Assembly: GCA_948144175.1 (NCBI GenBank)
Contig: CANXME010002307.1
Span: 2,315,001 to 2,379,000, forward strand
DNA from: Closterium sp. NIES-65
Taxonomy: Eukaryota; Streptophyta; Zygnematophyceae; Desmidiales; Closteriaceae
DNA: 64,000 nucleotides
Reading direction: 5' to 3'
In this document: positions 4,557 to 53,784 of the stretch, in pieces
Layout: every line of letters begins with the position of its first letter
Position numbering within the stretch: position 1 is the stretch's first letter
The notes under the pieces: generated by a model
The model's input: the letters and a program-made list of their open reading frames with translations, nothing else
Told to the model about the DNA's origin: nothing
The model's database searches: none
Position numbers and translations under genes: made by a program

Positions 4557-4887
4557 TGTTACGAGTGCAATTGAGTGAACGAGCGAGAATTGCACTATCG
4601 AAGCAAGAGTACAATGAGCGAAGGTATGAGCGAAGAATATATAGCGAAACTACAGTGGTAACGGTAATGGTAGCGCGACGAGCCTGGGACTGAGGTTGGG
4701 AACGTGTCGAAGCGTAGGCCCGGAGCGCGGGTTACCAGCCGAGCCGTGAGGTCGGGATGCGATGTGCGAAAATGGCGGGATGATGAATGATGCGATGGTC
4801 GCGAGTGGTAACGGTGCTGACTGAGGTGCTACAGTGATGTACGCGTTGAGCAGAGATGCGAAGTAAGGAAAAGGGAATTTCCTTACA
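4557..4887 (-). repeat. Gypsy-1 3' LTR
   Basis: Starts tgttacgag and ends ccttaca in plus coordinates (TGTAAGG...GTAACA in element sense), 331 bp. It is near-identical to 9765-10095. A polypurine tract adjoins at 4888. Confidence 0.95.
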
Positions 4888-4907
4888 CTACCCCCCCCCT
4901 CCTAAAA
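4888..4907 (-). promoter_or_regulatory. Gypsy-1 polypurine tract
   Basis: The minus strand reads an A/G-rich run with nine consecutive G residues ending in GTAG, immediately before the 3' LTR. This is the expected site for priming plus-strand DNA synthesis. Confidence 0.8.
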
Positions 4908-4915
4908 GGTCCTCC

Positions 4916-8521: not shown

Positions 8522-9582
8522 CGCCCCTTAAACGGTGCGGCAGCTGCATTCGTTGCGACGGCGTGTACAGTGGCGTGCTCGGTCGGTCCCCGAGGACGAT
8601 GTCCGTAATAGGACCCCGGTCTCGGTCGGCGTAGAATGTCGATCTTCTCGGCGAGCGCGAGAATCTCGTTGAAGTTAGAGAGTCCGCGCAGCATTATCTG
8701 GTGCGAGATGTCCGGCTTCAGCCCTCCGACGTAACGGTATACCCGCTCCGCTTCGTGCATGTAGCCGACCTGCTCGCAAAGTGCGAGAAAACCGCTGGTA
8801 TAGTCTTGAACTGACCCGAGCTGGCGCCAAGTGCGCAGTTTCTGACGCGCCGAAATTGAAGCCGCGATCGGCTCAAAACGCGCCCGAAGTCCTGCGCACC
8901 ACGCATCCCACGTGCTGTATTCGGCGGTCTCGCAGAACGAACTCCAGGTGACAGCTGGACCCGAGGGCCCTTCCTCGTGCGACGGTGGCTTGTAGGCGCG
9001 TGGCGACGTCACGATGACTCGCCACCAGTCCATGGCGGGGCCTCTTAGCAGTGAAACCGCATACCGGATCTTTGCGGCGTCCGACTCGACGTAATTGGCA
9101 TCGAAGAAAACGTTCATCGTGAAGACCCACGATTGAACTGTCGGACCGCCGCGTTGACTTGGGTCGAAGCAGGGCGGGCGTTGCGGCTTGAGCGGCATTG
9201 GTGCCATGTTGGGTTGTTCGCCACTTGTCGCAGCAAATTCCACATGCCGACGGACTTCTCGAGGCTCCCGTGGGCTTGGTGCGATCCTGTTTCCTCCCAT
9301 GCCAGGCATCGGCTGGGCGGCGCCCTCACTGGCTGCGCCTGAGCGTTGTCCCGTGCTGTCGTGTTGTGTTGGTGTGCCGGACGAGATGATGATCGGCTCA
9401 TCCGAACGTGCAGATGCGTTTGTTGGTGCGTGGGATGTCGTTGGTACGTTCATCGTGGATTGTTGACGGGCGGAGTCACGTTCCGCCGTGAGGGTCGCGA
9501 TTTCAAGCGCCGAATCCTCCAGTTGACGCACGAGACGATCAAGTTGCTCCTGCGTCAATGTGGCGAGCGTGAAATCGGCCAT
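8431..9582 (-). CDS. Gypsy-1 gag (capsid/nucleocapsid)
   Basis: About 383 residues from ATG 9582 (MADFTLATL). The open frame extends upstream to 9648, but the codon there is GTG, so 9582 is preferred. It contains an N-terminal coiled-coil-like stretch rich in Leu/Glu, a retrotransposon-gag core (~residues 150-320) and one zinc knuckle CFACNRPGHRKSEC (CX2CX4HX4C) close to the C-terminus. It ends at TAG inside the pol overlap. It would assemble the particle and bind element RNA. No lesions are visible. Confidence 0.9.
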   Translation of the reverse strand: MADFTLATLTQEQLDRLVRQLEDSALEIATLTAERDSARQQSTMNVPTTSHAPTNASARSDEPIIISSGTPTQHDSTGQRSGAASEGAAQPMPGMGGNRIAPSPREPREVRRHVEFAATSGEQPNMAPMPLKPQRPPCFDPSQRGGPTVQSWVFTMNVFFDANYVESDAAKIRYAVSLLRGPAMDWWRVIVTSPRAYKPPSHEEGPSGPAVTWSSFCETAEYSTWDAWCAGLRARFEPIAASISARQKLRTWRQLGSVQDYTSGFLALCEQVGYMHEAERVYRYVGGLKPDISHQIMLRGLSNFNEILALAEKIDILRRPRPGSYYGHRPRGPTEHATVHAVATNAAAAPFKGRCFACNRPGHRKSECPEELRRRGAEQGRES

Positions 9583-9750
9583 GGCGGGGGTGTAGGGCAA
9601 GCTCAGCAAGAGCCTCGGTCGTGGCCGTGCGTGCTTGCGAGAGAGCACTACGAGCGGTGGTGATGTATCGCTGAGAGACGTCTACCCCCCCCAAAAATTG
9701 AGATAGTGGGGAAGTGAAGGTGTGGATGCGGTCCGAGATGGGATCGTAGG

Positions 9751-9762
9751 CTCTGAATACCA
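9751..9762 (-). promoter_or_regulatory. Gypsy-1 primer-binding site
   Basis: The minus strand reads TGGTATTCAGAG two bases inside the 5' LTR. This is Met-tRNA-like with one extra T compared with TGGTATCAGAG. Confidence 0.65.
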
Positions 9763-9764
9763 AG

Positions 9765-10095
9765 TGTTACGAGTGCAATTGAGTGAACGAGCGAGAATTG
9801 CACTATCGAAGCAAGAGTACAATGAGCTAAGGTATGAGCGAAGAATATATAGCGAAACTACAGTGGTAACGGTAATGGTCGCGCGACGAGCCTGGGACTG
9901 AGGTTGGGAACGTGTCGAAGCGTAGGCCCGGAGCGCGGGTTACCAGCCGAGCCGTGAGGTCGGGATGCGATGTGCGAAAATGGCAGGATGATGAATGATG
10001 CGATGGTCGCGAGTGGTAACGGTGCTGACTGAGGTGCTACAGTGATGTACGCGTTGAGCAGAGATGCGAAGTAAGGAAAAGGGAATTTCCTTACA
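9765..10095 (-). repeat. Gypsy-1 5' LTR with TATA box
   Basis: 331-bp LTR matching 4557-4887 with about three substitutions (for example gagctaagg for gagcgaagg). The minus strand carries TATATATT at 9851-9844, about 244 nt into the LTR, a likely core promoter. Confidence 0.93.
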
Positions 10096-11666: not shown

Positions 11667-18838
<7,172 letters not shown>

Positions 18839-18960
18839 TGTCAAATTATAATGTTCTGTAGGCAATAGTGGGGTAGCCCATATGGGGTACACACTTCTAG
18901 GGTTGCATATTTGTATCACTTCCATTCCATAGTCAATTCATTCTCGTTCTACTTTTCTCA
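18839..18960 (+). repeat. Copia-2a 5' LTR (122 bp)
   Basis: Begins tgtcaaattataatg and ends cttttctca. It aligns by eye with the 131-bp LTRs of Copia-2c (shared gtagg, atagtggggta, ttcattctcgttct). A degenerate primer-binding site follows at once. Confidence 0.75.
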
Positions 18961-18974
18961 TAGTATCGAGAAGG
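18961..18974 (+). promoter_or_regulatory. Copia-2a primer-binding site (degenerate)
   Basis: tagtatcgagaagg aligns with TGGTATCAGAGCAGG of the initiator-Met type. About 37 nt past the LTR is the palindrome gggccc within gggcccacc (18998-19006), which recurs in other Copia-2 leaders. Confidence 0.6.
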
Positions 18975-19062
18975 TTCCCCCTTGGGAACTGTGCCTAGGG
19001 CCCACCACATCGAGTTTCACTTTTTTTCTCCTGCCCGAAGCGCGCTCCGCCCGAGTCGCGCT

Positions 19063-19930
19063 ACGGGCTCTCACCTCGCCGAGCCGCCCTAGCGGCCCCT
19101 TCCCCTAGCGGCCCCGCCGCCCTTCTCAGCGGCCCCGTCGCCTGTCTTAGCGGCCCCGCCGCCCGTCTTAGCGGCCCCGCCGCCCGTCTTAGCAGCCCCG
19201 CTGCCCGTCTTAGCGGCCCTGCCGCCCGTCTTAGCGGCCCCGCCGTCCGTCTTAGCGGCCCCGCCGCCCTTCTCAGCGGCCCCGTCGCCCCGCATTGCGG
19301 CCCCGCTAAACGTCTCCGCGGCCTCGCCGCCCCTCGCTGCGGCCCCGCCGCCCTACTCAGCGGCCCCGCCGCCCTTCTCCTCAGCGGCCCCGCCGCCCTA
19401 CTCAGCGGCCCCGCCGCCCTTCTCCTCAGCGGCCCCGCCACCCTACTCCGCGGCCCCGCCGCCCTACTCAGCGGCTCCGTCGCCCTTCTCCTCAGCGGCC
19501 CCGCCGCCCTGCTCAGTGGCTCCGCCGCCCTTCTACTCAGCGGCCCCGCCGCCCTACTCAGCGGCCCCGCCGCCCTTCTACTCAGCGGCCCCGCCGCCCT
19601 TCTCCTCAACGGCCCCGCCGCTCTACTCAGCGGCCCTGCCGCCCTGCTCAGCGGCCCCGCCGCCCTTCCGCAGCGGCCTCGCCGCCCTTCTCAGCGGCCC
19701 AGCCGCCCCTCGCACCAGCGGCCCTGCCGCCCTACACCGCCCGCGCCGCCCGAGCCGCCCGAACCGCCCGAGCCTCCCGAGCCGCCCCACCTGCCCGAGC
19801 TGCCCGAGCCGCCCGAGCCGCCCGACTCTCCTGAGCCGCCCGAGCCGCCCGACCAGCCCAAGCCGCCCGAGCCGCCCGAGCCGCCCGAGCCACCCGAGCC
19901 GCTTGAGCCGCCCGAGCCGCCTGAGGAGCC
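19063..19930 (+). repeat. GC-rich tandem-repeat leader of Copia-2a
   Basis: Two arrays: about 19080-19735 with units close to GCGGCCCCGCCGCCCTTCTCA (roughly 20-24 bp), then about 19740-19925 with a 9-bp GCCGCCCGA unit. Both lie between the primer-binding site and gag. Long open frames on both strands here are by-products of the repeat and not genes. Confidence 0.85.
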
Positions 19931-20097
19931 GAGCCGCTGGTGCCACGGAGCCGCAGTTGCTGCTGTGCCGTCCGAGCAGTCGTGTTGCCGTGCTGCTGTA
20001 CCGCTGAGCTGCCCGCCCCGCCCTGCCTGGTGAGAGCAGCGCTTCTGTCACTGCACTGCCCCTGTCCTACAGTTGGTACTGCTAGTCCACTGCTGTC

Positions 20098-23000
20098 ATG
20101 GCTACCCCCAGTGTTCTCGCTTTTGACGCTGAGGGTCGAGCCATTGACTTTGAGGTTTGGGTGGATGACCTGCAGCTTTTCCTACAGTGTGATAGGGCAG
20201 ACGGTCTTTCCCTCTTTGACCTCACCTCTGGTGCTTCCCCTGCCCCTGCTGCCGATGCCGATGCCACTGTTCGCTCCCAGTGGACCACTCGCGATGCTGC
20301 TGCACGTCTTGCTGTGCGTCGCCACCTGCCTACCACTGAGCGCGCGCACTTTAGTCAGTACAAGAGTGCTCAGACCTTGTACGACGCTGTAGTTGCACGC
20401 TACTCTTCCCCTGCCACTACTGCACTGAGCCGCCTCATGCTACCGTACCTCTTTCCTGACCTTGCTGCCTTTCCCACAGTCGCTGACCTCATTACGCACC
20501 TCCGCACTAGTGACACTCGCTACCGCGCCGCGCTTCCTACTGAGTTCTGCGCCAAGAACCCCCCCCCCATGTACATCACTCTCTATTATATAGTCACCGG
20601 CCTCCCTGACTCCCTTCGAGTAGTCCGGGACCACTTCCTCTCAGTCTGTCCCACCACTCTCACTGTTGACCTCCTAGAGAAGGCCCTCCTAGCAGCGGAG
20701 AAGAGCATAGTCGCTGTAGGAGCCTCTCGTGGTGACCCTCGCACCCCCATCTTTGAGGGGTGTTCCCCTTCCCCCCTATTGCCCTCTGTCGCCTTTACTG
20801 CTGCGGCCGACCTCGTTGGTCTTGAGTCGGTCGGTGCGGCGTCTGCCCCTAGCGAGAGACGCCGCTCTAGCAAGGGCAAGGGGGGCAAGGGCGCGGGTGG
20901 AGCTAGCGGGGGTAGTGGAGGTGGCGGTGGAGGCGGCGGAGGGAGTGGGGGTGGCGGTGGGAGTGGTGGCGGGGGTGGGGGTGGCGGTGGCAGCGGCGGA
21001 GGCGGAGGCGGAGGTGGCGGTAGCGGTGGGAGCGGAGGCGACGGTGGTGGCGGAGGTGGGGGCGGCGGTGGTGGAGGAGGTGGAGCTGGTCGGGGTGGTG
21101 CATCGCAGCGGAGCGGCTCCGGGGGTGGTCAGCGCCAGCAGCAGCAGCAGCGTTCTCGGGACATCCCCCCTCCTCAGCAGCTCCGTGAGTGGTACACGCA
21201 GCGTCAGCGTGGTGGGGGTTTTGGCCCGTGCACCTACGTCCTTCGCTCCGGCGACCGCGCGGGTGAGCAGTGTGAGGGTGCTCACCCCACCCAGCGCTGC
21301 TTTGGCCGCCTGACGGACGCTTGGCGTCAGCAGTTCCCGGAGGCTAGTGAGATCCCCTGCTGGGGAGAGCTGTCTAGGGCAGGCGTAGCTATCTTTGATC
21401 TTGACTTTGATGCTATCCTTGCTGCCATGTATGCTGTGACTATTAGTGATGAGGGTGCATGTTACCGGTGTTTCCGGCCCGACCCGGGCATTGGTTCTGC
21501 TGCTCTAGGTGCTGGTGAGGCTGCTGGTCTAGGTGCCAGTGCGTCCGCGCCCTCAGGTGCTGGTGAGTCTGCGCTCTCAGGTACCACGTCGGCTTCGGCC
21601 TCCCTCACCTTAACACTTGACTCAGGGGCTTCTCGCTCCTTCTTTCGAGACCGCACCACACTCACGCCGCTAGGTCGGCCAGTTGCAGTCTCCCTGGGAG
21701 ACCCCTCTGTGGGTCCTATCCTCTCTCACTTCTCCACTGTCCTCCTGTGTCCGGCTGCCCCCTCTGGCACCTTGTCTGGTCTTTACCTCCCCTCTTTCTC
21801 TACGAACTTGGTGAGCGGTGCTGACCTGTAGGATACGGGGGTTCACCAGTTCACTCCTGCGAGTCAGCGGGTGACCCACTGCACGGACGCTCGGACAGGC
21901 CGACACCTGGCCACGTTTACACGTCGGCCGGGGTCGAACCTATACACACTGACCACTGCGTCTCCTCTAGTCACTTCGTCTGGTCAGGTAGCTGCGTCGG
22001 GTCAGGTGTTTGCTGCAGCGTCCAGGTCTGGTCCTGAGTCTGCCCCCTGCTCGTGTCGCCTCCTGTCTCACGAGACTCTCCTCTGGCACCACCGTCTTGG
22101 TCACCCCTCCCTGCCTCGTCTCCGAGGCATGGCTTCCCGTGTCCTTGTCTCTGGTCTTCCCCGGTCCCTCCCTCCCCTTCCTCCGGGGCCTGGTCCTTCC
22201 TGTGTCCCCTGTGTCGAGGGGCGGCTCCGGGCTGCCCCTCACTCCTCTCAGTTTCCCCCGACAGAGGCCGCGCTACAGACACTTCACATGGACGTGTGGG
22301 GCCCAGCCCGCGTCCGTGGACAGGGTCACGAGCGCTACTTCCTGGTGGTGGTTGACGACTACTCGCGTTACACCTCAGTCTTCCCCTTGCGCAGCAAGGG
22401 TGATGTCGCTGAGGTGTTGATCGACTGGATCCGCGCAGCTCGTCTTCTGCTCAGGAGGAGCTTCGGCTCAGACTTTCCTGTTCTGCGTCTGCACTCTGAC
22501 CGAGGCGGAGAGTTCTCCTCTGGCCTTCTGCGAGCCTACTGTCGTGCGCGAGGCATCCGCCAGACCTTTACGCTACCGGACTCTCCACAGCAAAATGGGA
22601 TTGCTAAGCGCCGCATTGGCATGGTCATGGATGTCGCTCGTACGTCCATGATGCATGCGGCTACCCCCCATTTTCTGTGGCCGTTTGCGGTTCGGTACGC
22701 GGCGCATCAGATCAACCTTCACCCCAGGGTCTCCAGGCCGGAGACCTCCCCAGCCTTGCTGTGGACAGGGAAGGTCGGCGATGCGTCTGCGTTCCGTGTC
22801 AGGGGATCTCGGGCGTTTGTCCGCGACTTGTCTGCGGACAAGCTGTCCCCTCGTGCTGCTCCTTGTGTCTTCCTTGGCTTCCCCCCTGACGCCCCTGGGT
22901 GGCAGTTCTACCACCCCACCTCTCGTCGTGTTCTGTCCTCCTAGGATTTCACGTTCGACGAGTCTGTCCCCTACTACCGCCTCTTCCTCTACCGCACTCC

Positions 23001-25534
23001 TTCCCTCCCCCCGCCACCGCACTTCCTTGTGCCAGGTCCCCCCCCAGTAGACCCCCTCCCCCCTCAGGGTCCTGCCCCTTCAGGTGTGTCCCAGGTAGAT
23101 GCAGTCGAGCCGGTCAAGTTTGCTGGTGACTCTGGTACTGCTGCGGGGGTTGAGCCTGGGGGTGCTGACTCTGGGGGTGCTGCGCGCGTGGGTGCTGAGC
23201 CTGAGGGTGTTGAGTCTGGGGGTGCTGCGACTGGGGGTGCTGAGCCTGGGGGTGCTGAGCCTAGGGGTGCTTCGTCTGGGGGTGCTGCGTGTGGAGTGAT
23301 GAGCCTGGGGGTGCTGAGTTTGGAGCTACTGAGCCTAGGGGTGCGGAGCCCGCGGCCGCTGGACCTGCTCGTGTGGCGTCTGGAGGTGCTGGGCCTGGTG
23401 GTTCTCCGGGTGCTTCGTCTCGGCGGGAGCCACTCTCTCCACAGGAGCTGCGCGAGTGGTTTGCCCGGCGCTGGAGGCGTACTCCTGGAGCTGGTGCTTC
23501 TTTGGCTGCTGAGGGTGCTGGTGCCGCCGGTCTCGGAGGTGCTAGTCCTGCGAGTGCTACTGGAGTCAGAGCTGCTGAGGGTGTTGGCGCCGAGGCTACT
23601 GCTGTCAGTCCTGGCGGCGGTCTTGCTGCGGGTGCTGCTGGTGCTGCTGGAGGTCCTGGAGCTGGAGGTGCTGTTGATGCTGGTGCTGCCGCTGGGGGTG
23701 CTGGTACTGTCCCTGCTGTGTCTGGGGTCGCCGCGCGGCCTCGGCTGTACTTTGTTCCGCTCCTTCAGCAGGTTCTTGGTCTTCCTCCTCCCTTAGAATG
23801 TCCACCCCCTGTCCAGTCACAGTCCCAGTTACCGCCGGCCTCCCCACTGCCTTCTCCTTCTCCATATAGTGGTCCTACTGGAGGTCTTGCTGAGCGTCGT
23901 GAGCCTGCGTCTCGTCCTGCGTCGCCAGTTCGTGCTGCTCGCACTAGTGGTCGCAGTTCGCGTCAGCGTCCTCCTCCTGTCCCTGGCACGCAGCGGATGT
24001 CTCTGCGTCCGTCCACTGCTCCTCTGCGTGCCCCTTTGCCCTCTCCTCCTGAATCCTCTCTTCTTGCGCTTGCCGACACTGAGTCGGACTCTCTTCGTGC
24101 TGCTAGTCCTATTATCACGCGTCTCCTTCCTACTGTCGTCACTGACCCTTGTTTTGAGTCCACTGCTGCGTCTGCTCTTGTTGCTGAGCTCGTCGACTTT
24201 GCTGCTCGCTGTCGTCTAGACTACGCTGCTAGTCTTGTTGCTGAGTCTGCGTCTGTCTGTCCTCCGTCCGTCGGGGGTGAGTGTGCTCTTGGCACGGACG
24301 TCCTTGAGGACAGGCAGGAGGAGTTCCAGTGTCTGGCTGCTGCTTCACCTCATCTCGCGTCCGTACTGCTTACACTTGAGGGAGACCCGGATGCACTTGA
24401 CATCCCGACTCCGCGCTCTTACGCGGAGGCCGTAGAGGGTCCCTACTCCTCTCAGTGGCAGGCAGCTATGGATGCAGAGATGGCTTCCTGGAAGTCCACA
24501 GGCACCTACGTTGACGCGGTTCCCCCTCCTGGGGCGAACATCGTCAGTGGCATGTGGATCTTCAGGGTGAAGCGGCCGCCGGGCTCTCCACCTGTCTTCA
24601 AGGCGCGGTACGTGGCTCGTGGCTTCAGTCAGCGGCAGGGAGTTGACGACTTTCAAACCTTCTCTCCCACCCCGAAGATGACCACTCTTCGGGTGCTGCT
24701 ACACATAGCCGCTCAGCGTGACTACGAGCTTCACTCCCTTGACTTCAGCACTGTTTTCCTGAAGGGTAGCCTGCACGAGGAGATCAGGTTGCGCCGTCCA
24801 CCTGGCTTCACTGGGACTTTCCCTCCTGGCACCCAGTGGAGCCTCCGACGGCCAGTCTACGGTCTCTGTCAGGCACCGCGCGAGTGGCACGACACACTGA
24901 GGACTACACTTGCGGCTCTTGGGTTTGCTCCCTCTACTGCTGACCCGTCGCTGTTTCTACGCACCGACACCTCTCTGCCGCCGTTCTACATCCTCGTGTA
25001 CGTCGACGACTTGGTCTTTGCCACAGCTGACACTGCTGGACTCGCCCACGTGAAGTCTGAGCTGCAGAAGAGACACACGTGCACAGACCTGGGTGAACTG
25101 CGCAGCTATCTTGGCTTGCAGATCACCCGGGACAGAGCACGCCGCACCATTACCCTGACTCAGTCACACATGGTGCAGCAGGTCCTTCAGCGCTTCGGCT
25201 TCACGTACTCCTCGCCTCAGGCCACTCCTCTGCCTACTCGCCACTCGCTCTCAGCTCTGCCTTCGGATGAGTCCGTAGAGTCGAGTGGCCCGTACCCAGA
25301 GCTTGTTGGCTGCCTCATGTACCTGATGACCTCCACAAAACCTGACCTTGCATACCCTCTTAGCATTCTTGCACGCTATGTTGCTCCTGGGAGACACAGA
25401 CCAGAGCACATGGCTGCAGCGAAGAGGGTGTTGCGCTACTTGTGCAGTACGTTGGGCATGGGGCTAGTGCTTGGAGGGCGGAGTCCAGTGGTCCTCACTG
25501 GGCACGCGGACGCTTCTTCGGCAGACGACCAGGC
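20098..25534 (+). pseudogene. Copia-2a gag-pol, broken and truncated
   Basis: Starts MATPSVLAFDAEGRAIDF. Gag carries a poly-Gly tract (20905-21090) and an atypical zinc motif CX13CX3HX4C (GPCTYV...EQCEGAHPTQRC). Protease DSGASRSFF; integrase HH-CVPC and DDE residues (SDRGGEF, QNGIAKRR); a GGAEP-type repeat linker (23135-23300); RT with YVDDLVF at about 25000; RNase H cut after HADASSADDQA. Lesions: TAG 21829-21831 and TAG 22942-22944, both CAG in sister copies, and a frameshift near 23290 inside the linker repeat. Without RNase H or a 3' LTR it cannot transpose by itself. Confidence 0.9.
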
Positions 25535-28500
25535 AAAGTGGGGGAGAACAAGGGGTCACAAGACCAGTCAAGCAAAGCAAAGCAAAGCTCAGGGTGGATC
25601 ACAAAGTCACCACACATTCCGAGCACAAGGCCAGTTCACATGCAAGAGCATATATAAAGATATACAAGAGTCAAGCGAGCAAGAGCAAGAGTATATATAG
25701 CAGAAGGTACAAGCAAGGTCAAGAAGTGAGCAAGTGAAGCAGGACAGGTACAAGACCCAGCTGCGTGCAGCAACGCTGATGATCACAAGGCGCAAGTGCC
25801 TTGCTGAAGACATCAGCAGTGTTGGCCTCAGAGGCCACGTACGCAAGTCGCAACTGTCCACGCTGCTGTAGCTCACGAGCAAGAAAGTAGCGGAGAGCAA
25901 TATGCTTCGTTCTGTGCTCCAGTCGCTGCTCTCGACACAAGGCCAGCATGGCCTTGTTGTCTACGTACAGGACTGGAGGAGAACGAGGCGGCTCTCCAAG
26001 GTCGGTCAGCAGGTAGGTGAGCCAGCGTAACTCCTGTGCAGCCATAGCCCCAGCGTAGATCTCAGCCTCACAACTGGAGCCGAGAACAGAAGACGAGCGG
26101 GTAGCTCGCCACGAAACAGAGCCGGAACCAAGGCTGAAGGTGTAACCCTGTGACGACCGCTGCGTAGCCTGGTCGTCAGCCCAAGAAGCGTCTGCGTGCC
26201 CAGTGAGGACCACTGGACTGCGCCCTCCAAGCACTAGCCCCATGCCCGACGTACTGCACAAGTAGCGCAACACCCTCTTCGCTGCAGCCATGTGCTCTGG
26301 TCGGTGTCTCCTAGGAGCAACATAGCGTGCGAGAATGCTAAGAGGGTATGCAAGGTCAGGTCGTGTGCAGGTCATCAGGTACATGAGGCAGCCAACAAGC
26401 TCTGCAAACGGGCCACTCGACTCTACGGACTCATCCGAAGGCAGAGCTGAGAGCGAGTGGCGAGTAGGCAGAGGAGTGGCCTGAGGCGAGGAGTACGTGA
26501 AGCCGAAGCGCTGAAGGACCTGCTGCACCATGTGTGACTGAGTCAGGGTAATGGTGCGGCGTGCTCTGTCCCGGGTGATCTGCAAGCCAAGGTAGCTACG
26601 CAGTTCACCCAGGTCAGTGCACGTGTGTCTCCTCTGCAGCTCGGACTTCACATAGGCGAGTCCAGCAGTGTCAGCTGTGGCAAAGACCAAGTCGTCGACG
26701 TACACGAGGATGTAGAACGGCGGCAGCGAAGTGTCGGTGCGCAGAAACAGCGACGGGTCGGCAGTAGAAAGAGCAAACCCAATAGCTGCGAGCGTAGTCC
26801 TCAGTGTGTCGTGCCACTCACGTGGCGCCTGGCGGAGACCGTAGACTGGACGCCGGAGACTCCACTGGGTACCAGGAGGGAAAGACCCAGTGAAGCCAGG
26901 TGGGCGACGCAGCCAGATCTCCTCGTGCAGGCTGCCCTGCAAGAAAGCCGTGCTGAAGTCGAGAGAGTGGAGCTCGTAGTCACGGTGAGCAGCAACGTGC
27001 AGTAGAACCCAAAGAGTGGTCATCTTCGGGGTGGGGGAGAAGGGGTGAAAGTAGTCAACCCCTTGCCGCTGACTAAAGCCACGAGCCACGTAACGCGCCT
27101 TGAAGACAGGCGGAGAACCCGGCGGCCGCTTCACCCTGAAAATCCACATGCCACTGACGATGTTCGCCCCAGGAGGGGGAACAGCGTCAACGTAGGTGCC
27201 TGTGGACTTCCAGGAAGCCATCTCTGCATCCATAGCTGCCTGCCACTGAGAGGAGTAGGGACCCTCTATCGCCTCCGCGCAAGAGCGCAGAGTCGGGATG
27301 TCTGGTGCCTCCGGGTCTCCCTCAGGGGCTAGCAGTACAGACCCGAGATGAGGTTAAGCGGCGGCCAGACACTGGAACTCCTCCTGCCTGTCCTCAAGGA
27401 CGTCCGTGCCAAGGGCACACTCACCCCCGACGGACAGAGGACAGGAATACTCAGACTAAGCGACAAGACTGGCAGCGTAGTCTAGAGGACAGCGCGCAGC
27501 AAAGTCGACAAGCTCAGTGACAAGGGCAGACGCAGCAGACGACTCGAAGGAAGGGTCAGTGACAGCAGTAGCAAGGAGACGCGTGACAGTAGGACTGGCA
27601 GCACGAAGAGAGTTCGACTCCGGGTCGGCAAGAGCAGGAAGAGAGGAAGCAGGAGGAGAAGGCAAAGGGGCACGCAGAGGAGCAGTGGACGGACGCAGTG
27701 ACATCCGGTGCGTGCCAGGGACAGGAGGAGGACGCTGACGCGAACCGCGACCACTAGCGCGCACAGTACGAACAGGCGACGCAGGACGAGACGCAGGCTC
27801 ACGACGCTCAGTAAGACCTCCAGTCGGACTAGCGTAGGGAGAAGGAGCAGGCAAAGGGGAGGCAGGCTGTAGCGGTGGCTGTGACTGGACAGGCCGCGGA
27901 CCCTCTAAGGGAGGAGGAGGAGGACCAGGAGAAGGTGTAAGACCAAGAACCTGCTGCAGGAGCGGAACGAAGTACGGTCGGGGCCGCGCGGCGACGCCAG
28001 AAACAGCAGGGACAGCACCAGTACCCCCAGCAGGAGTACCCGCTCCAGCAGCACCTCCAGCAGCACCTCCAGTAGCTCCAGAACCTCCAGCAGCATCACC
28101 AGGAGCACTGCCAGGCGGACCGCCAGCGGCAGTCCCAGTGCCAACACCCTCAGCAGCACCAGCTCCAGGAGAACCCTCAGACCCAGCAGCTCCAGTACTC
28201 CCAAGACTAGCACCTCCGGGACCCGCGGCAGTGGCACCCTCTGCAGGCGAAGAACCTCCAGCACCAGCAGCACGCCTCCAGCGCTTGGCAAACCACTCAC
28301 GCAGCTCCTGTGGGGAGAGTGGCTCACGACGAGACAAAGCACCTCCAGGCACAGCACCCCCAGGCACAGCACCCCCAAGCTCAGCACCCCCAGGCTCAGC
28401 ACCCCCAGGCTCAGCACCCCCAGGCTCAGCACCCCCTGACTCCGCACCCCCAGACTCCGCACCCCTAGGCTCAGCACCCCCAGGCTCAGCACCCCCAAGG

Positions 28501-30405
28501 CTCAGCACCCCCAGACTCCGCACCCCCAGGCTCAGCACCCCCAAGCTCAGCACCCCCAGCAGCACCAGAGTCACCAGTGACCTCGACAGGCTCGACCGCG
28601 TCTACCTGGGACACACCTGAAGGGGCAGGAACTTGAGGGGGGAGGGGGGCTACCGGGGGGGGACATGGTACCAAGAAGAGCGGGGGTGGGGGAAGGGACG
28701 GAGTGCGGTAGGGGAAGAGGCGGTAGTAGGGTACCGACTCGTCGAACGTGACGTCCTGGGAGGACAGAACACGTCGAGAGGTGGGGTGGTAGAACTGCCA
28801 CCCAGGGGTGACGGGGGGGAACCCCAGGAAGACGCAGGGAGAAGCGCGAGGGGACAGTTTGTCCGCAGATAGGCCGCGGACAAACGCCCGAGATCCCCAG
28901 ACCCGGAACGCCGACGCATCGCCAACCTTCCTCGTCCACAGCAGGGCTGGGGAGGTCTCCGGCCTGGAGACCCTGGGGTGGAGGTTGATCTGATGCGCTG
29001 CGTACCTGACCGCAAACGGCCACATAAAATGGGGGGCAGCCGCATGCATCATGGACGTACGGGCGACGTCCATGACCATGCCAATGCGGCGCTCAGCAAT
29101 CCCATTTTGCTGCGGAGAGTCCGGAAGCGTGAAGGACTGGCGGATGCCTCGAGCCCGACAGTAGGCACGTAGAAGGGCAGAAGAGAACTCTCCGCCTCTG
29201 TCCGAGTGCAGACGCAACACAGGAAAGTCGGAGCCAAAGCTCTGCCTGAGCTGAAGACGAGCTGCGCGGATCCAGTCGATCAGCACCTCAGTGACCTCAC
29301 CCTTGCTGCGCAAGGGGAAGACTCTGGTGTAACACGAGTAGTCGTCAACAACGAGCAGGAAGTAGCGCTCCTGACCGTGTCCACGGACGCGGGCTGGGCC
29401 CCACACGTCCATGTGAAGCGTCTGCAACGAGGCCTCTGTCGGAGGAAACTGGGAGGAGTGAGGGGCAGCACGCTGGCGCCCCTCGACACAGGGGACACAG
29501 GCAGGGCCAGGGCCCTGAGGAAGGGGAGGGAGGGACCGGGGAAGACCAGACACAAGAAGACGGGAGGCCATACCTCTGAGCCGAAGCAGAGAGGGGTGGC
29601 CAAGGCGGTGGTGCCAGAGGAGGGTCTCGTGAGACAGACGACGACACGAACAGGGGGCAGACTCAGGGCCAGACCTGGACGCTGCAGCAAACACCTGACC
29701 AGATGAAGGGACCCCACCAGACTCAGTACCTGGAGGAGAAGCAGTGGTCAGTGTGTACAGGCTCGACCCCGGCCGACGTGTAAACGTAGCCAGGTGGCGA
29801 CCTGTGCTAGCCTCCGTGCAGTGTGTCACCCGCTGACGAGCAGGAGTGAACTGGTCGACACCCGCATCCTGTAGGTCAGCACCACTCACCAGGTTCGTCG
29901 AGAACGAGGGGAGGTAGAGACCAGACAGGGTGCCAGAGGGGGCCACCGGACACGGAAGGACCGTGGAGAAGCGAGACAGGACAGGCCCCCCAGAGGGGTC
30001 AGCCAGGGACACCGCAACCGGCCGACTCAGCGGCGTGAGAGTGGTGCGGTCCCGAAAGAAGGAGCGAGACGCTCCAGAGTCAAGGGTGAAGGTGTGAGAG
30101 GCCGAAGCCGACACAGTACCTGAGAGGGCAGACTCACCAGTACCTGAGAGCACAGACACACTGGCACCTAGAGCAGCAGCCTCACGAGTACCTGACGCAG
30201 CAGTTTCAATGCCCGAGTCGGGCGGGAAACACCGGTAACAGTCATCCTCATTACTACCAGTCACAGCATACATAGCAGAAAGAATAGCATCAAAGTCAAG
30301 ATCATAAATAGCTACACCAGCCCTAGACAGCTCCCCCCTGCGGGGGATCTCAGCGGCCTCCGGAAACTGCTAACGCCAGGCGTCGGTCAGGCGGCCAAAG
30401 CAGCG
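21292..30405. repeat. Large inverted repeat formed by Copia-2a and Copia-2b
   Basis: 21292-25534 (plus) and 26167-30405 (minus) cover the same gag-to-RNase H interval in opposite orientation, arms about 4.24 kb, loop 25535-26166 (about 630 bp). Similarity is very high by eye through RT and RNase H. Exact identity needs alignment. Confidence 0.85.
25531..30405 (-). pseudogene. Copia-2b gag-pol, both ends missing
   Basis: Minus-strand copy of the same family. From right to left: zinc-motif end of gag, protease DSGASRSFF, integrase, GGAEP linker (~28340-28570), RT with YVDDLVF (~26690), complete RNase H ending HLLTS, then about 190 bp of 3' UTR. Lesions: TAG 30370-30372 (CAG in sisters), a frameshift within the linker repeat, TAG at 27456-27458 and a TAA near 27350. 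Its 3' LTR is absent: the 3' UTR is cut just before the polypurine tract and joined to Copia-2a. Its 5' part is cut in gag and joined to Copia-3a through about 11 bp of unassigned sequence. Confidence 0.88.
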
Positions 30406-32098
30406 GCGGGCTGTGTGGGTGCATGTGCATGGCGCTCGTGCCTAAGCATCTTCAGCACAACAAGCTTGGTGCCAAGGCTGTGTGGGCCGTGCACTTGGGC
30501 ATGGCTCAAAACAGCAAGGGATGGCTTCTTCGGGACCCATTCACCGAGAAGTTCATGGTGAGCAGGGACTGCAAGTTCATGGAGAACTTCATGTACAAGG
30601 ATTGGAAGGCGGAGAATGAGGCGAAGTTAGGCGTGCGGTTTGGGGAGGTGAAGAGTTCCGGTTTGGAGCATGTGGAGCTGCCTTTGGAGTTGAGCAGCGG
30701 CAGCACTACTACAAGGCAATCTTCCCTTGTGAATGGGGGAGAGGAGGCCAATGATGCAGAGGAAGAAGAGGAGGAGGTGCAGCAAGTGAGCGAGCGTGCA
30801 CCGTCACTCCCTTCCTGCACTACGAGTGCTACACGGATTCGAGCCACACCGCAGCAACGCCAAGGCCTTCAAGTCCCTGCATCTGAGGAGGAAGGAAGGA
30901 AAACGAGGAGAGTTCAACCCTCTAATAGGCTGACCTATGATGCACCGAGAAAGCAGTGCAAGACAGCCCTGGCCGGAGCGGCAATGATGGTCGGAGACGA
31001 CGAGGAGAGTGACTACGAGGAGTGTGCCTTCGCGTTCTTCTCCCCGGTGGAGATGCCGGGAGAACCAGCAACTCTCAAGGAGGCTTTGGAGAGTAGTGGT
31101 GCTGAGGAGTGGAAGAAGGCCATGGAGAGTGACCTGAAGAGCATCGAGGAGACGACACGTTTGAATTGGTGGAGCTACCGGAGGGGCGTACGGCGATAAC
31201 GTCCAAGTGGCTCTTCAAAATCAAGTCGGATGCCAACGGCAAGATCAAGCACTACAAGTCTAGGCTTGTAGCCAAGGGGTACCAGCAGAAGGAGAAGGTG
31301 GACTTCAAGGAGCTGTTTGCTCTTGTGGTGAAGCCGACAACCCTGCGAACCCTATTCACGGGAGCCGCCATCAAAGGATGGGTGGTAAAGCAAATGGACA
31401 TCGTAACGGCATACCTTAACGGCATCCTTGAGGAGGAGATTTTTATGGCGCAGCCAGAGGGTTTTGATGATGGTAGTGGCAGAGTGTGGAAGCTGAAGAA
31501 GGCCCTCTATGCGCTGAAGCAGGCCCCTAGGCAATGGTACATGAAGCTGTGCGAAGTGTTGGAGAACTCCCTCAACAGCTGATCACTCCTTGTTCATGCT
31601 TGGCGAGGGGGAGCAGAGGAGCTTCATGGTGGTTTATGTGGATGACATTCTCATATTCTCACCCTCCTCTGACCTTGTGAAGGAGGTGATGCTGAAGCTG
31701 CAAGACAAGTTCAAGTGCAAGTCCCTTGGTGACGTGAACTTCTACCTTGGGCTCCACATCGAACGAGACGTGGAGAAGCGGAGCATGCGAGTGCACCAAC
31801 GGAAGTACCTGGAGGCGTTGGCTGCCAACTTCGGCCAGAGTGAAGGTCATGTGGCTACTCCGTTTCCTTCGGGGTTCAAGTGTGTGAAGGGGCCAGAGGA
31901 GGAGAGCGTTGGAGAAGAGGAGAGGCGCCATTTTCACTCGTTGGTGGGCAGCCTCATGTATGCGGCGGTAAACACCCGACCGGACGTCGCGTTTGCTACC
32001 GGGCAGCTGGCTAGGGTTGTGCAATGCCCTAATGAGGAGCGGGTAGCAGCTGGAATGAGGGTGGCCAAGTATCTTGGCCAAACACCGACCGTTGGGCT

Positions 32099-32228
32099 TG
32101 TGAATAATGAGGAATGAAAGAAGAGGGGGGGCACTAGCAGCAGTTGGCATACATCTAGGAAACCCTAATTGGGTTGTACTCGCTATAGAGTACCCCTTTG
32201 CAGGCTAGACAATTATAACATTCTGACA
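32099..32228 (-). repeat. 3' LTR of the non-autonomous element
   Basis: 130 bp, plus-strand ends tgtgaataa and attctgaca, followed by cacctccatagccaaag, the same polypurine-tract design as Copia-2c. Confidence 0.88.
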
Positions 32229-32699
32229 CACCTCCATAGCCAAAGTGGGGTGTAATCAGCACAATGAGCAAGCAGGCATAGAGCAGGAGTTCACAATAGC
32301 AAGCAAAGCTAGAGTTGATCACAGCGGGCAAGTGAGGAGGAGGAGGAACTGTGGAGGGAGAGAAGATGGGAGGCAACGACTGAAGCTGCAGAGGCACGGG
32401 CACAGGAGCGGCTGACTCAGTGGCTACCGAAGCAAGGGCGACGGACTACTGGAGTAACTGGCTCCGCGGCTATAGACGAGCGGCAGGAGCAACGGACCCA
32501 CTGGCGACTGGTGCAACAAGCTCATTGGCTACCGAAGCAAGGGCAACGGACTACAGGCGAAGCAGGCGACACGACAGCTACCTTCACACAACCTCCTCCA
32601 GCTGCCCCACACCCCTCGACACACACCCCTTGCTCAAACCCTAGTTCCACTCCCACAGCACCCCCCTTTCACACACCCCCTGCTGCACCCTAGGTTCAC

Positions 32700-33545
32700 T
32701 CACACCCCACCCCCTAGCACCACTCCGTAGACTCCCACACACCCACCCCCCTCAGCGGGTGCTGCAGCAGTGGGAGACAGAGGAGGAGGAGGAGCAGGGG
32801 AGACCGCACACCCGCCACCCCCTACTCGCCACCCCCAAACCCTAACACAGGGCAGGGCCGGGCGACGGGTAGGGAGGTTACGGGAGGGGGGGGGGGGGGG
32901 GGGGGGGGGGGTGGGGCGACGCGCGGCCTCCCAAGGCGCCAAAACAGGCGGCAGAAGGGGCGACGCTCGCCCCCCCCCCCCCCAGGTCGCCTCGACAGGC
33001 GACGGGAAAAGAGGGGGGGGGCGGTGCACGTGCCCCCGGTGCGCCGCGACTGGCGACGGAGCATGGCCGGGGCGGGGTCGGGGCAGGGTCAAGGCGGGGC
33101 CGAAAGGGGTGGCGACGGGGCCACAAGGGGCGGCGACGGGGCCGCTGGAGGCGGCGATGGGGCCGATAGGGGCGGCGACGGGGTCGCAAAAGGGCCGCGA
33201 GGGGCCTGGAAGGGCGGCGACGGGCCGCTAGGGGCGGCGACGGGGCCGCTGGAGGCGGCGACGGGGCCGATAGGGGCGGCGACAGGGCCGCGAAGGGGCT
33301 GCGAGGGGCTTGGAAGGGCGGCGACGGGCCGCTAGGGGCGGCGACGGGGCCGCGAGGGGGCCGCGAGGGGCCTGAAAGGTCGGCGACGGGGCCGTTAGGG
33401 GCGGCGACGGGGCCGCGAAGAGGCCGCGAGGGGCCTGGAAGGGCGGCAACGGGGCCGCGAAGGGGCCGCGAGGGGCCGAGAAGGGCGGCGACGGGGTCGC
33501 GAGGGGTGGCGGCGGGGCCGCTAAGGGTCGCGCGAGGGGCCGTGA
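32700..33545 (-). repeat. GC-rich leader repeats and homopolymer runs of the non-autonomous element
   Basis: Units of the type ggcgacggggccgc recur from about 33070 to 33540. A 26-base G run sits at 32886-32911 and a C run at about 32970-32983; both could form quadruplex or i-motif structures. The palindrome gggccc is at 33601-33606, about 32 nt past the 5' LTR. Confidence 0.8.
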
Positions 33546-33637
33546 GAGGGGCACGCCACGGGGCGTGCAGCACACAGAGTAGCAGCGGAAGCAGTTAGGT
33601 GGGCCCACAGGCCAGGAGCGTAGATGCTCTGATAGCA

Positions 33638-33767
33638 TGTGAAGAATGAGGAATGAAAGAAGAGGGGGGGCACTAGCAGCATTTGGCATACATATAGGAA
33701 ACCCTAATTGGGTTATACTCGCTATAGAGTGCCCCACTGCAAGCTAGACAATCATAACATTCTGACA
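33638..33767 (-). repeat. 5' LTR of the non-autonomous element
   Basis: 130 bp, matches 32099-32228 with about nine differences, which suggests an older insertion than Gypsy-1 or Copia-2c. Confidence 0.88.
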
Positions 33768-34332
33768 GGGCTGCAATACTTGACGGCGGCACAAAGGCGC
33801 CAAAAGGGTGTGGATGATGTTGAACCTGGGCGTTTGTTCCTCACCGCCTACGCGGATGCTTCATATGCATCAGAATCAGAGGACATGACAAGTGTCGGAG
33901 GGTTCATATGCTATGTTGGTGGAGGCCCAACAGCTTGGGAGAGCAAGAAGCAGGTTGACCAAACTTTGAGCTCCGTGGAGTCCGAGTACATGGCACTCTT
34001 CCGTGCTGTACAGGAGATTGTGTGGCAACGGCGTTTGTTGGCTGAATTGGGGGAGGAGCAGCAAGGACCTACCCCACTCAACTGTGACAGCCAGGGTGCC
34101 ATTGCTCTTGCTAAGAACTCTGTGCTGCATGGCCTCACAAAGCACATGAGGGTGAAGTGGCATTGGACGAAGAGCACGGTGGCCGCGGGTGAGGTTGAGT
34201 TGCACTATGTGAAGACGACGGGGCAGCCGTCTGAGGCTGGTGGAACAGCAGCATTGGAAGTGTTGCAAGCTGGCTGGGATGGCTCTGAACTAAGAGAGCA
34301 AGATCCTAAGACCGACAATCCGAGGGGGAGTT

Positions 34333-34415
34333 TGTTGGTGCAACCCTACGGTTTGCACTCGGCTTGTTGTCCGTGTGCGTGCATGCGTGTGTGCATGGAA
34401 TGGAATGAGTGCATG

Positions 34416-34461
<46 letters not shown>

Positions 34462-35187
34462 CATGCTTATAATAGTGTTTGAATGGTGGGTCATGATGTC
34501 GAGTGTGTGTGTCAAGTCAATAGCGAATTATCGCTAGTCGCGTGTAACGTGATCATTTTGTGTGTCCCGCGCGGTTTCTATTTTGTCGTGCGCGGTTTCT
34601 ACTTTGTCGCTTGTTGAACGTTCGGCGTGTCGCAGATGTGTGCAGCAGACCCATCAAGAACTCAAGGATGAGTTTGTGATGAAGAACCCGAGCCCTGGTG
34701 TCAACATTCAAGTGATCGCGAAGCTCGCCAAAAGGGTACACCTCAAGAAATTGAAGATAGTTACATTACTTTGTGTAGTGTAACATTTCACTTGGTGTAG
34801 GCCCTAGTGAAGGGTAGTTTCGAGACCCTTCGTGGTTGGGGACAGTGTGGCACTGTTCCACATCACTGTACCTTGGCTCTTGGGGTTTGTAGGAGCTGGG
34901 AGTCATTCCTAACTCGTAACTCTTCCTGACTCTTCCTATCTTGTGTTCTAAGACCATAGTGGCTGCCATAGTGCCGTTCGTTCAAACCAATGCTGTGTCG
35001 TCAATACTTGGTGAACTCGTGCGATCGCCTATTGTATGTGATGTTAAGATGCTCCAGATCCAAGTTGAATCAGGTCATTTGAAGCTGAGACCAGAACGCT
35101 ATGAACGTTTAAAGCCGCTGTTACGAAATCCGACAGTGCACTCTATCTTTCGTTTTATGCACATTGAAGCCTACTGTGACTATAACA
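34333..35187 (+). repeat. Copia-3a 3' LTR
   Basis: Begins TGTTGGTGCAACC after the purine tract and ends ACTATAACA, 855 bp. It is homologous to the 830-bp Copia-3b LTRs; the extra length is mostly an expanded AT microsatellite. Confidence 0.88.
34418..34460. repeat. AT microsatellite inside the Copia-3a LTR
   Basis: About 20 AT dinucleotides flanked by gcatgaa and ttcatgc, forming one perfect palindrome. The Copia-3b LTRs have only a few AT units at this spot. Confidence 0.95.
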
Positions 35188-40852: not shown

Positions 40853-40983
40853 TGTGACAATGAGAACGAGAATGAATGAACTATGAGCGAAGTGGGTACA
40901 AGTACTAACCCTATTTGGGTTGTACCCCCTATGAGATACCCCACTATAGCCTACACAAAAGCATAAGCTATAATGTTCTGACA
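40853..40983 (-). repeat. Copia-2c 3' LTR (131 bp)
   Basis: Plus-strand ends tgtgacaat and gttctgaca. Followed at 40984 by cacccccatag, the polypurine tract on the minus strand. Differs from 48185-48315 at two positions. Confidence 0.93.
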
Positions 40984-41195
40984 CACCCCCATAGGCAAAG
41001 TGGGGAAGAACAAGGGGTCACAAGATCAGTCAAGCAAAGCAGAGCAAAGCAAGCTCAGGGTGGATCACAATGTCACCACACAGTCTGAGCACAAGGTCAA
41101 GGCCACAATGCCAGTTCACATGCAGGAGGAGACATATATATATGAGTCTAAACAAGCAAGAGCAGGCATATATATATGCAAGAGTACAAGTAAGG

Positions 41196-44100
41196 TCAAG
41201 AAGTGAGCAAGTGAGGCAAGACTGGGACAAGTCCCAGCTGAGTACAGAAGCGCTGATGATCACAAGGCGGAAGTGCCTTGGTGAAGACATCAGCAGTGTT
41301 GGCCTCAGAGGCCACGTACGCAAGTCGCAACTGACCACGCTGCTGCAGCTCACGAGCAAGAAAGTAGCGGAAAGCAATGTGCTTCGTTCTGTGCTCCAGG
41401 CGCTGCTCTCGACACAAGGCCAGCATGGCCTTGTTGTCTACGTACAGCACTGGAGGAGAACGAGGCGGCTCTCCATGGTCAGTCAGCAGGTAGGTGAGCC
41501 AGCGAAGCTCCTGAGCAGCCATGGCCCCGGCGTAGATCTCAGCCTCACAACTGGAGCCGAGAACAGAAGACGAGCGAGTAGCTCGCCACGAAACAGAGCC
41601 GGAACCAAGGCTGAAGGTGTAACCCTGCGACGACCGCTGCGTAGCCTGGTCGTCAGCCCAAGAAGCGTCCGCGTGCCCAGTGAGGACCACTGGACTCCGC
41701 CCTCCAAGCACTAGCCCCATGCCCGACGTACTGCACAAGTAGCGCAACACCCTCTTCGCTGCAGCCATGTGCTCTGGTCGGTGTCTCCCAGGAGCAACAT
41801 AGTGTGCCAAGATGCTAAGAGGGTATGCAAGGTCAGGTCGTGTGTAGGTCATCAGGTACATGAGGCAGCCAACAAGCTCTGGGTACGGGCCACTCGACTC
41901 TACGGACTCATCCGAAGGCAGAGCTGAGAGCGAGTGGCGAGTAGACAGAGGAGTGGCCTGAGGCGAGGAGTACGTGAAGCCGAAGCGCTGAAGGACCTGC
42001 TGCACCATGTGTGACTGAGTCAAGGTAATGGTGCGGCGTGCTCTGTCCCGAGTGATTTGCAAGCCAAGGTAGATGCGCAGTTCACCCAGGTCAGTGCACG
42101 TGTGTCTCTTCTGCAGCTCGCACTTCACGTAGGCGAGTCCAGCAATGTCCGCTGTGGCAAAGACCAAGTCGTCGACGTATACGAGGATGTAGAACGGCGG
42201 CAAAGAAGTGTCGGTGCGCAGAAACAACGACGGGTCAGCAGTAGAGGGAGCAAACCCAAGAGCCGCAAGCGTAGTCCTCAGTGTGTCGTGCCACTCACGT
42301 GGTGCCTGGCGGAGACCGTAGACTGGCCGTCGGAGGCTCCACTGGGTGCTAGGAGGGAAAGTCCCAGTGAAGCCAGGTGGACGGCGCAGCCAGATCTCCT
42401 CGTGCAGGCTACCCTACAAGAAAGCAGTGCTGAAGACAAGAGAGTGGAGCTCGTAGTCGCGCTGAGCGGCTATGTGCAGCAGCACCCGAAGAGTGGTCAT
42501 CTTCGGGGTGGGAGAGAAGGTCTGAAAGTAGTCAACTCCCTGCCACTGACTGAAGCCACGAGCCACGTACCGCGCCTTGAAGACAGGTGGAGAGCCCGGC
42601 GGCCGCTTCACCCTGAAGATCCACATGCCACTGACAATGTTCGCCCCAGGAGGGGGAACCTCGTCGACGTAGGTGCCTGTGGACTTCCAGGAAGCCATCT
42701 CTGCATCCATAGCTGCCTGCCACTGAGAGGAGTAGGGACCCTCTACGGCCTCCGCGTAAGAGCGCGGAGTCGGGATGTCTAGTGCATCCGGGTCTCCCTC
42801 TGGGGCAAGCAGTACAGACGCGAGATGAGGTGAAGCAGCAGCCAGACACTGGAACTCCTCCTGCCTGTCCTCAAGGACGTCCGTGCCAAGAGCTTACTCA
42901 CCCCCGACGGACGGAGGATAGACAGACGCAGACTCAGCAACAAGACTAGCAGCGTAGTCTAGACGACAGCGAGCAGCGAAGTCGACGAGCTCAGCAACAA
43001 GAGCAGACGCAGCAGTGGACTCAAAGGAGGGGTCAGTGACAACAGTAGCAAGGAGACGGGTGACAGTAGGACTGGCAGCACGAACAGAGTCCGACTCAGG
43101 GTCGGCAAGCGCAGGAAGAGAGGACTCACGAGGAGAGGGCAAAGGGGCACGCAGAGGAGCAGTGGACGGACGCAGAGACATCCGGTGCGTGCCAGGGACA
43201 GGAGGAGGACGCTGACGCGAACTGCGACCACTAATGCGAGCAGCACGAACAGGCAACGCCGGACGAGACGCAGGCTCACGACGCTCAGCAAGACCACCAG
43301 TAGAACCAGTGTACGGAGACGGAGAAGGCAGTGGGGAGGCCGGCGGTAACTGTGACTGCGACTGGACAGGGGGTGGACCCTCTAAGAGAGGAGGAAGACC
43401 AAGAACCTGCTGAAGGAGCGGAACAAAGTACGGCCGAGGCCGCGCGGCGGCACCAGACACAGCAGGGACAGCACCAGCACCCTCAGCACCTCCGGCAGCA
43501 CCAGCGCCAACAGCACCTCCAGCGGCAGGACCTCCAGCAGCACCAGCAGCACCAGCAGCACCCGCAGCAAGACCACCACCAGGACGGTCAGTAGTAGTCT
43601 CAGAACCAACACCCTCAGCAGCTCCAGCTCCAGGCGGACCCGCAGGCCCAGCAGCTCCGTGACCGGCGGCACCAGCACCCTAAGCGGCCGAAGAAGCGCC
43701 AGCTCCAGCAGTATGTCTCCAGCGGCGAGCAAACCACTCACGCAGCTCCTGTGGAGAGAGTTGCTCGCGCCGAGACGAAACACCCGGAGAACCTCCAGGC
43801 CCAGTACCGTCAGACGCCACAAGGGGAGGTCCAGTGGTCGCAGGCTCCACACCTCCAGGCTCAGCAGCTCCAGACGCAGCACCCACAGGCTCAGCACCCC
43901 CAGGCTCAGCACCCACGCGCGCACCACCCTCAGAGTCAGCACCCCCAGGCTCAGTACCCCCAGAGGCAGCACCCCTAGGCTCAGCACCCCCAGGCTCAGC
44001 ACCCCCAGGCTCAGCACCCCCAGACTCAGCACCCCCAGGCTCAGCACCCCCAGACTCAGCACCCCCAGAGTCAGCACCCCCAGGCTCAGCACCCCCAGCA

Positions 44101-47166: not shown

Positions 47167-47269
47167 GACGACAGACGCCTAGCAGTGCAAGCAGTAGGGT
47201 GAGGGCAGCGCAGTGAAAAAGAAGGCTCTGTGCTCACCAGGCTGGATAGAACGGGCCGTATGGAAGTAG

Positions 47270-53707: not shown

Positions 53708-53784
53708 AACTCCCCCTCGGATTGTTGGCCTTAGGAAATGTTGCTCTCTCAGTTCAGAGCCATCCCAGCCAGCTTGCAACACTT

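Follow-up and report, generated by a model that had tools for sequence, protein, structure and literature searches.

Inverted Copia-2 retrotransposon copies in Closterium sp. NIES-65: a probable deletion scar that may be an accidental source of double-stranded RNA

Introduction

Is a pair of inverted retrotransposon copies behind an LTR a locus that silences its own family, or a by-product of insertion and deletion? The question is raised by a 64-kb stretch of Closterium sp. NIES-65 DNA (the window, meaning the whole stretch analysed here), in which an original prediction, made from the sequence alone, had seen two Copia-2 copies, 2a and 2b, as a candidate hairpin-RNA silencing locus after the model of maize Mu killer (Muk). 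Muk, as described by its authors (PMC2563033), contains part of MuDR in duplicated and inverted form; it yields a perfect 2.4-kb hairpin and 26-nt siRNAs and brings about genetic silencing. The Closterium genome, searched here as an assembly of 874 Mb, is retrotransposon-dense and rich in one Copia family. A literature search on Closterium small RNAs with Dicer returned no paper so titled, and neither did one on the genome and retrotransposons for Closterium transposable elements.

Results

The presence of two Copia-2 copies as a 4.2-kb inverted repeat was borne out when the two arms were aligned, a check that had been proposed with the prediction. Self-BLAST of the window paired 21295-25534 (plus) with 30405-26167 (minus) over 4292 columns at 86.5% identity (E = 0.0), and in the global alignment 3704 of 4191 ungapped columns are identical (88.4%), with 115 gapped columns, of which 12 belong to overhanging ends, and 32 runs of 21 nt or longer are perfect. 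As sequence, such a repeat is far beyond chance. The loop, expected at about 630 bp, measured 632 bp and, judged from its alignment with Copia-2c, belongs to 2b rather than being foreign: it is the 3' portion whose counterpart 2a has lost, and the whole of 25531-30419 pairs with 2c 40993-45983 in a single alignment. RVT_2 domains were found for the 2a side in 23289-25697 and for the 2b side in 25722-27233, and self-comparison of the window revealed zero LTRs between the arms. When the copies were compared in bins of 100 bp, 2a was nearer to 2c than to 2b in the majority, which indicates that the arms are two different copies. The longest perfect run, 184 nt at 25110, is conspicuous beside the 88% of the arms as a whole; since its stretch is also well conserved with 2c (0.97 and 0.99 in its two bins), gene conversion between the arms is no more than possible. 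The features are collected in Table 1.

Table 1. Positions of the elements, arms and junctions within the window
Feature	Position	Strand	Basis
MITE-like repeat, cut by the 2a insertion about 30 bp short of its right end	18405-18838	+	copies L046-L048
Copia-2a, 3'-truncated by about 790 bp (yardstick 2c)	18839-25534	+	last aligned base = 2c 41644; 2c end 40853
2a 5' LTR, possible promoter, sole LTR kept by 2a	18839-18967	+	TGTCA start at 18839; sibling alignments
Left arm of inverted repeat	21295-25534	+	window self-BLAST, global alignment
2a/2b junction, 4-bp microhomology AGGC/GCCT	25531-25534	.	sibling alignments on both sides
Copia-2b, without polypurine tract, 3' LTR, 5' LTR and first ~2.3 kb	25531-30419	-	comparison with 2c and L028
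Spacer (loop), 632 bp, 3' end of Copia-2b, counterpart missing from 2a	25535-26166	-	2c alignment
Right arm of inverted repeat	26167-30405	-	window self-BLAST, global alignment
Second junction, 5'-truncated 2b end to X internal sequence, blurred overlap	30409-30422	.	sequence comparison
Copia X fragment, 5'-truncated, second Copia family	30409-35187	+	matches 55985-52878 (-)
Nested element in X fragment, 133-bp LTRs, target duplication GGGCT	32096-33767	-	LTR pair 92.5% alike
X 3' LTR, 855 bp, next same-sense LTR identified past the arms	34333-35187	+	X copy comparison
Copia-2c, both LTRs present, yardstick	40853-48318	-	LTRs 40853-40986 and 48185-48318
Copia-2d, extends off window edge	61596-64000	-	window comparison

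The 4-bp overlap aggc that had been placed at 25531-25534 was found exactly there: on the 2a side the match to sibling copies, of 99% at best, holds to 25534, and on the 2b side copy L028 is 100% identical from 25531 on. The 35-mer across this junction (25515-25549) has one forward and zero reverse matches when 3 or fewer mismatches are allowed across the 874 Mb, and a junction with a single match in the genome has not been amplified as an element. An amplified palindromic element, also considered, was rejected on this single match and on the unrelated gaps of other inverted pairs. The far end of 2b is likewise truncated and meets a different Copia (X), which goes beyond what the prediction had described.

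The 5' LTR predicted for 2a at 18839 is also confirmed. It begins there with TGTCAAATT, and alignments to the siblings L009, L010 and L012 start at 18838-18839, the right end of the LTR (...TTCTCA) having been read by eye; 112-121 of its 128-129 aligned bases match six LTRs from three siblings. This 5' end sits cleanly inside a MITE-like repeat whose end motifs, as judged by eye from L046 and L047, are GGGCGCGTTCGTTC and GAACGAACGCGCCC, and whose copies L046-L048 extend some 30-40 bp past the insertion point. The right end of the repeat is absent from both strands of the 64-kb window with up to 7 edits allowed, and it could sit outside the window.

Other elements of the window give a scale for these observations. 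The LTRs of Copia-2c are 97.8% alike over 134 columns, with flanks CTGTC and CTGAC by eye, and a second X copy at 52875-59370 has 833-bp LTRs that are 96.9% alike. The nested element interrupts X at 32098/33768, with GGGCT at each side by eye.

According to our analysis, inverted Copia-2 pairs are a common arrangement in the Closterium genome. The siblings were drawn from 32 of the 39 other places listed; 29 independent copies were compared, three duplicated segments being counted a single time, and partners were scored on the 3' side of the siblings within 2.2-3.7 kb. A tail-to-tail partner was found for 10 of the 29, a direct one for 5 and neither for 14. At E 1e-8 none of the 10 inverted loci has non-Copia flank in common with another, and this points to separate origins. 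The excess of inverted over direct partners (10 vs 5) is not significant (two-sided sign test by hand, 0.30); restricted to partners of at least 79% identity, a cut chosen post hoc, it becomes 9 vs 2 (p 0.065, by hand). Three of these pairs resemble 2a/2b in family, relative orientation and comparable arm identity (81-94% by segment, with a total longer than here), namely L012/L021, L010/L022 and L016/L023, the partner of L016 being additionally broken by an X LTR. Unlike 2a/2b, they keep both 3' LTRs between the arms, in gaps of about 0.4 kb (L012/L021), 0.8 kb (L016/L023) and 1.0 kb (L010/L022), so that any read-through there would need to pass retrotransposon ends.

Discussion

We propose that the locus is most probably the product of two neighbouring, opposite Copia-2 insertions fused by a microhomology deletion. 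Two independent insertions in opposite orientation would have given a tail-to-tail pair of the type that persists elsewhere in the genome, and one end-joining event would then have removed the last 0.8 kb or so of 2a together with its right-hand target DNA, the gap, and from 2b the 3' LTR end and the polypurine tract. A second, similar event may have joined the other end of 2b to the X fragment. What is seen in the window agrees with this, as the facing ends are lost, the junction carries microhomology and the right half of the target is absent. An undeleted version of the locus was not found in the left-flank search, where, among the 40 of 1040 candidates that were scored, matches other than the window itself were to the MITE part or the LTR only. 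A more complex event, for example inversion plus deletion, would give a similar scar. In retrotransposon-rich wheat DNA, indels near LTR elements are reported with a few repeated bases at their flanks, such as a GCGT motif at one locus, and end-joining repair is discussed (PMC7156093). The short repeats at the breakpoints are common to both cases; here, unlike the rearrangements described in that work, the deletion unites two opposite copies of one family.

Other origins have to be weighed against such a deletion. Reverse transcription with template switching can produce composites that integrate as a single unit; such complexes are documented in Triticeae, and those of Sabot and Schulman (2007) are described as having outer LTRs of high similarity, a third LTR inside and 5-bp duplications at their flanks (PMC1950507). 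Fusion of two Copia-family copies is a shared trait, and the microhomology would suit a polymerase jump, yet we hold this origin to be quite improbable for 2a/2b, whose copies are inverted with no shared third LTR and no target duplication of the kind reported for those complexes. The outer LTRs differ, the left one being a Copia-2 LTR of about 129 bp and the right one an 855-bp LTR of family X; GTTCG on the left faces CCAAA just beyond the X 3' LTR with no 5-bp duplication found, and the window lacks the other MITE end. It is the lack of a right-hand target duplication that disfavours integration as a composite. A fold-back read gives near-identical arms. The arms here disagree in about 12% of ungapped columns and also carry indels, the breakpoints lie within elements, and further on there is another truncated junction. 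Although two repeats of the same family meet at a junction with one match in the assembly, as an assembly chimera would have it, the PacBio reads of the published NIES-65 assembly (N50 30 kb) exceed the 9-kb repeat (PMC10407611), and an artefact is in our judgement very unlikely.

Whether the fused pair acts on its family is a separate matter. With both facing 3' LTRs gone, a transcript started at the 2a LTR could run on into 2b in antisense and, as no LTR separates the arms, could fold back; the structural premise of the prediction (long inverted arms, an upstream 5' LTR, no LTR between) has stood. The further proposal, that Dicer cuts the paired arms into siRNAs which act in trans to repress Copia-2, is possible on sequence grounds and in our estimate unlikely. 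It draws on the 32 perfect runs (21 nt or longer) within the 4.2-kb arms and on the predicted fold of 1,834 nt around the loop, at -1520 kcal/mol compared with -706 (SD 10) for 12 shuffles, in which 582 of 601 left-arm bases pair with the right arm. Exact matches of arm-A 21-mers amount to 27% in 2c; among the 17 targets compared, the lowest share is 4% (2d) and the highest 50% (L012). Piwi-domain exons were found on 6 contigs of the genome, and antisense-RNA knockdown lines, as well as Cas9 knockouts, are reported for the C. psl. complex (PMC5736609). Against it, the likeness to Muk, in that both are rearranged derivatives of transposons whose arms are inverted, stops at the perfect hairpin (PMC2563033), the arms here being imperfect; the maize locus derives from one duplicated and inverted element, whereas two divergent copies are fused in Closterium. 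The family is not fresh either, the LTR pairs of three siblings differing at 9-10 of 129-130 bases, and the 2a promoter may therefore well be worn. As tail-to-tail pairs are frequent and three have longer arms, orientation and arm length are no sign of a dedicated regulator. It is very improbable, too, that such pairs, above all derivatives in which both facing 3' LTRs are gone, are a diffuse class of dsRNA sources by which this unicellular relative of land plants restrains its abundant Copia family.

The deletion scar may be an accidental dsRNA source, judging by its structure, and there is no indication of a dedicated silencing function. In a genome so rich in one Copia family, separate insertions and deletion readily give rise to long inverted repeats, and caution is due: an inverted pair taken alone does not testify to a regulatory locus. 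If transcribed, the 2a/2b locus would serve as a natural test case for the conversion of accidental inverted retrotransposon pairs into silencing RNA by streptophyte algae.

Structure of the inverted repeat

The inverted repeat of two Copia-2 copies claimed by the original prediction is present: the left arm (A, in Copia-2a) aligns with the right arm (B, in Copia-2b) at 86.5% identity by BLAST, or 88.4% over ungapped columns with 115 columns gapped, and both arms have 619 exact 21-mers in common. All 103 internal gapped columns fall within 23092-23891, in and shortly after 15-bp tandem arrays that both arms contain. Over one stretch of 184 bp the arms are perfectly identical, against 88% overall, which possibly reflects gene conversion or plain conservation. 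Copia-2c, having both LTRs, served as the yardstick for 2a and 2b. The 5' LTR of 2a is retained as expected, and the loop of about 630 bp was confirmed as a 632-bp spacer but, from the extents of the two copies relative to 2c, it is the own 3' end of 2b, the part missing from 2a. The best 120 of 8000 scored relatives of the 2a reverse-transcriptase frame are all named Closterium.

Repeat features in the window (X, a second Copia family)
Feature	Position	Strand	Remarks
Copia-2a	5' LTR at 18839, to junction	plus	stops about 790 bp short of the 3' end of 2c
Left arm	21295-25534	plus
Right arm	26167-30405	minus
15-bp tandem arrays	23106-23420; 28310-28588		within the arms
Identical stretch	25110-25293
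Copia-2b	25531 to about 30419	minus	breaks off at 25531 just short of polypurine tract; lacks tract, 3' LTR and first ~2.3 kb relative to 2c
2b to X transition	30409-30422
X fragment	from 30409-30422; 3' LTR 34333-35187		5' part missing, 3' LTR kept
Element nested in X fragment			133-bp LTRs, target duplication GGGCT
Copia-2c	48318-40853	minus	both LTRs
GC-rich 21-24-bp and 9-bp tandem arrays	19062-19950		shortly after Copia-2 5' LTR (2a)
Sequence matching these arrays	47266-48088; 33095-33560		in 2c; in nested element
X copy	52875-59370		single 1584-aa frame; 833-bp LTRs 96.9% alike; target duplication AGTAC, read by eye
Gypsy-type element with chromodomain	4555-10095		RVT_1, integrase, Chromo in 4919-8521; apparent 333-bp LTRs (4555-4887, 9763-10095) 99.1% alike, therefore a young insertion

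Origin of the locus

The predicted 4-bp overlap at the junction was borne out, since siblings match the 2a side up to position 25534, with identities reaching 99%, another genomic copy (L028) matches the 2b side at 100% from 25531, and AGGC is common to both sides. With up to three mismatches allowed, the 35-base junction pattern matched once in the whole genome (874 Mb, 2400 contigs) and its backwards control nowhere; the junction is a private event and no mobile unit. Fold-back reads produce near-identical arms, and the divergence of these arms is unlike such an artefact of reading or assembly. The published NIES-65 assembly, described as built from PacBio reads with an N50 of 30 kb, also counts against it (PMC10407611).

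About 430 bp to the left of 2a belong to a MITE-like repeat with many copies (best 40 of 1040 candidates scored), and the three copies examined, of which L047 and L048 are duplicates of one segment, extend some 30-40 bp past the insertion point of 2a. When up to 7 edits were allowed, neither strand of the window was found to contain this continuation. Had the block gone in as one unit, the MITE remainder and a second GTTCG would be expected at its right end, where the DNA following the 3' LTR of X begins CCAAA, and such an insertion is unlikely; loss of the right half of the target, as far as a search of the window goes, is what a post-insertion deletion predicts. Most probably an abundant Copia family inserted twice, close together and in opposite orientations, and a microhomology deletion then joined the two copies. 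The feature is real and its origin is ordinary.

Paired copies elsewhere in the genome

Paired copies were counted at 32 of the 39 other Copia-2 places listed (best 40 of 6966 candidates scored), with 2.2-3.7 kb of 3' flank each, a non-random sample of the nearest relatives of 2a (three places on contig C1255, two on C2336 15 kb apart). With duplicated segments taken once (L012=L028, L031=L038, L040=L043), 29 loci remained, and only Copia-2 type partners were accepted, LTR-only hits being excluded (L025, L034, a direct LTR in L040) and divergent partners included (L014 74%, L017 71-75%, L041 71-72%, L035 77%). An inverted tail-to-tail partner was found at ten (L010, L011, L012, L014, L016, L018, L027, L030, L039, L040) and a direct one at five (L015, L017, L031, L035, L041), while 14 have neither within that flank. 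Tail-to-tail pairs are common in this sample; the excess of inverted partners is not significant, and could hint at an insertion preference. The partner starts about 0.35-0.6 kb past the 3' end of the first copy in L012, L027, L030 and L040.

In three of the inverted pairs, L012/L021 (2.2 + 4.4 kb; 92%, 84%), L010/L022 (1.2 + 5.0 kb; 86%, 85%) and L016/L023 (1.8 + 0.35 + 3.1 kb; 94%, 81%, 82%), the arms are longer than the 4.2 kb of the window locus, with the examined stretches ending inside some partners; unlike these three, the window locus keeps no LTR between its arms. Near-identical sequence (99-100%) recurs across contigs in L012/L028, L031/L038, L040/L043 and L047/L048, and these pairs are, judging by sequence, segmental duplications, in agreement with the copy-number variation described for these Closterium strains (PMC10407611).

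Potential for hairpin RNA

A plus-strand transcript from the LTR of 2a would run through 2a in sense, 2b in antisense and X in sense. Transcripts end at LTRs, and the next same-sense LTR identified on such a path would be that at 34333-35187. For 1,834 nt surrounding the loop the predicted folding energy is -1520 kcal/mol against -706 for dinucleotide shuffles (n=12), with 582 of 601 left-arm bases paired with the right arm. Among 17 targets (2c, 2d and L009-L023), the share of exact arm A 21-mers ranges from 4% (2d) to 50% (L012), being 27% in 2c, and that of arm B from 3% (2d) to 24% (L016), with 13% in 2c.

Piwi-domain matches in the genome number 22 and lie on six contigs; duplicated genes evidently account for some of them. 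One survey traces DCL2/3/4 and AGO2/3/7 to an ancestor shared by Zygnematophyceae and land plants and reports that DCL1 was not found in either of the zygnematophyte genomes that had been published by that time, two in number; Closterium is not mentioned in its main text (PMC7994812). Antisense-RNA lines of Closterium are described, with weak or variable phenotypes (PMC5736609). The hairpin of maize Mu killer, the model of the original prediction, is described as perfect (PMC2563033), whereas the one predicted for this locus is imperfect. It is improbable that this locus carries out the predicted hairpin silencing; the modelled fold is consistent with double-stranded RNA possibly arising from it.
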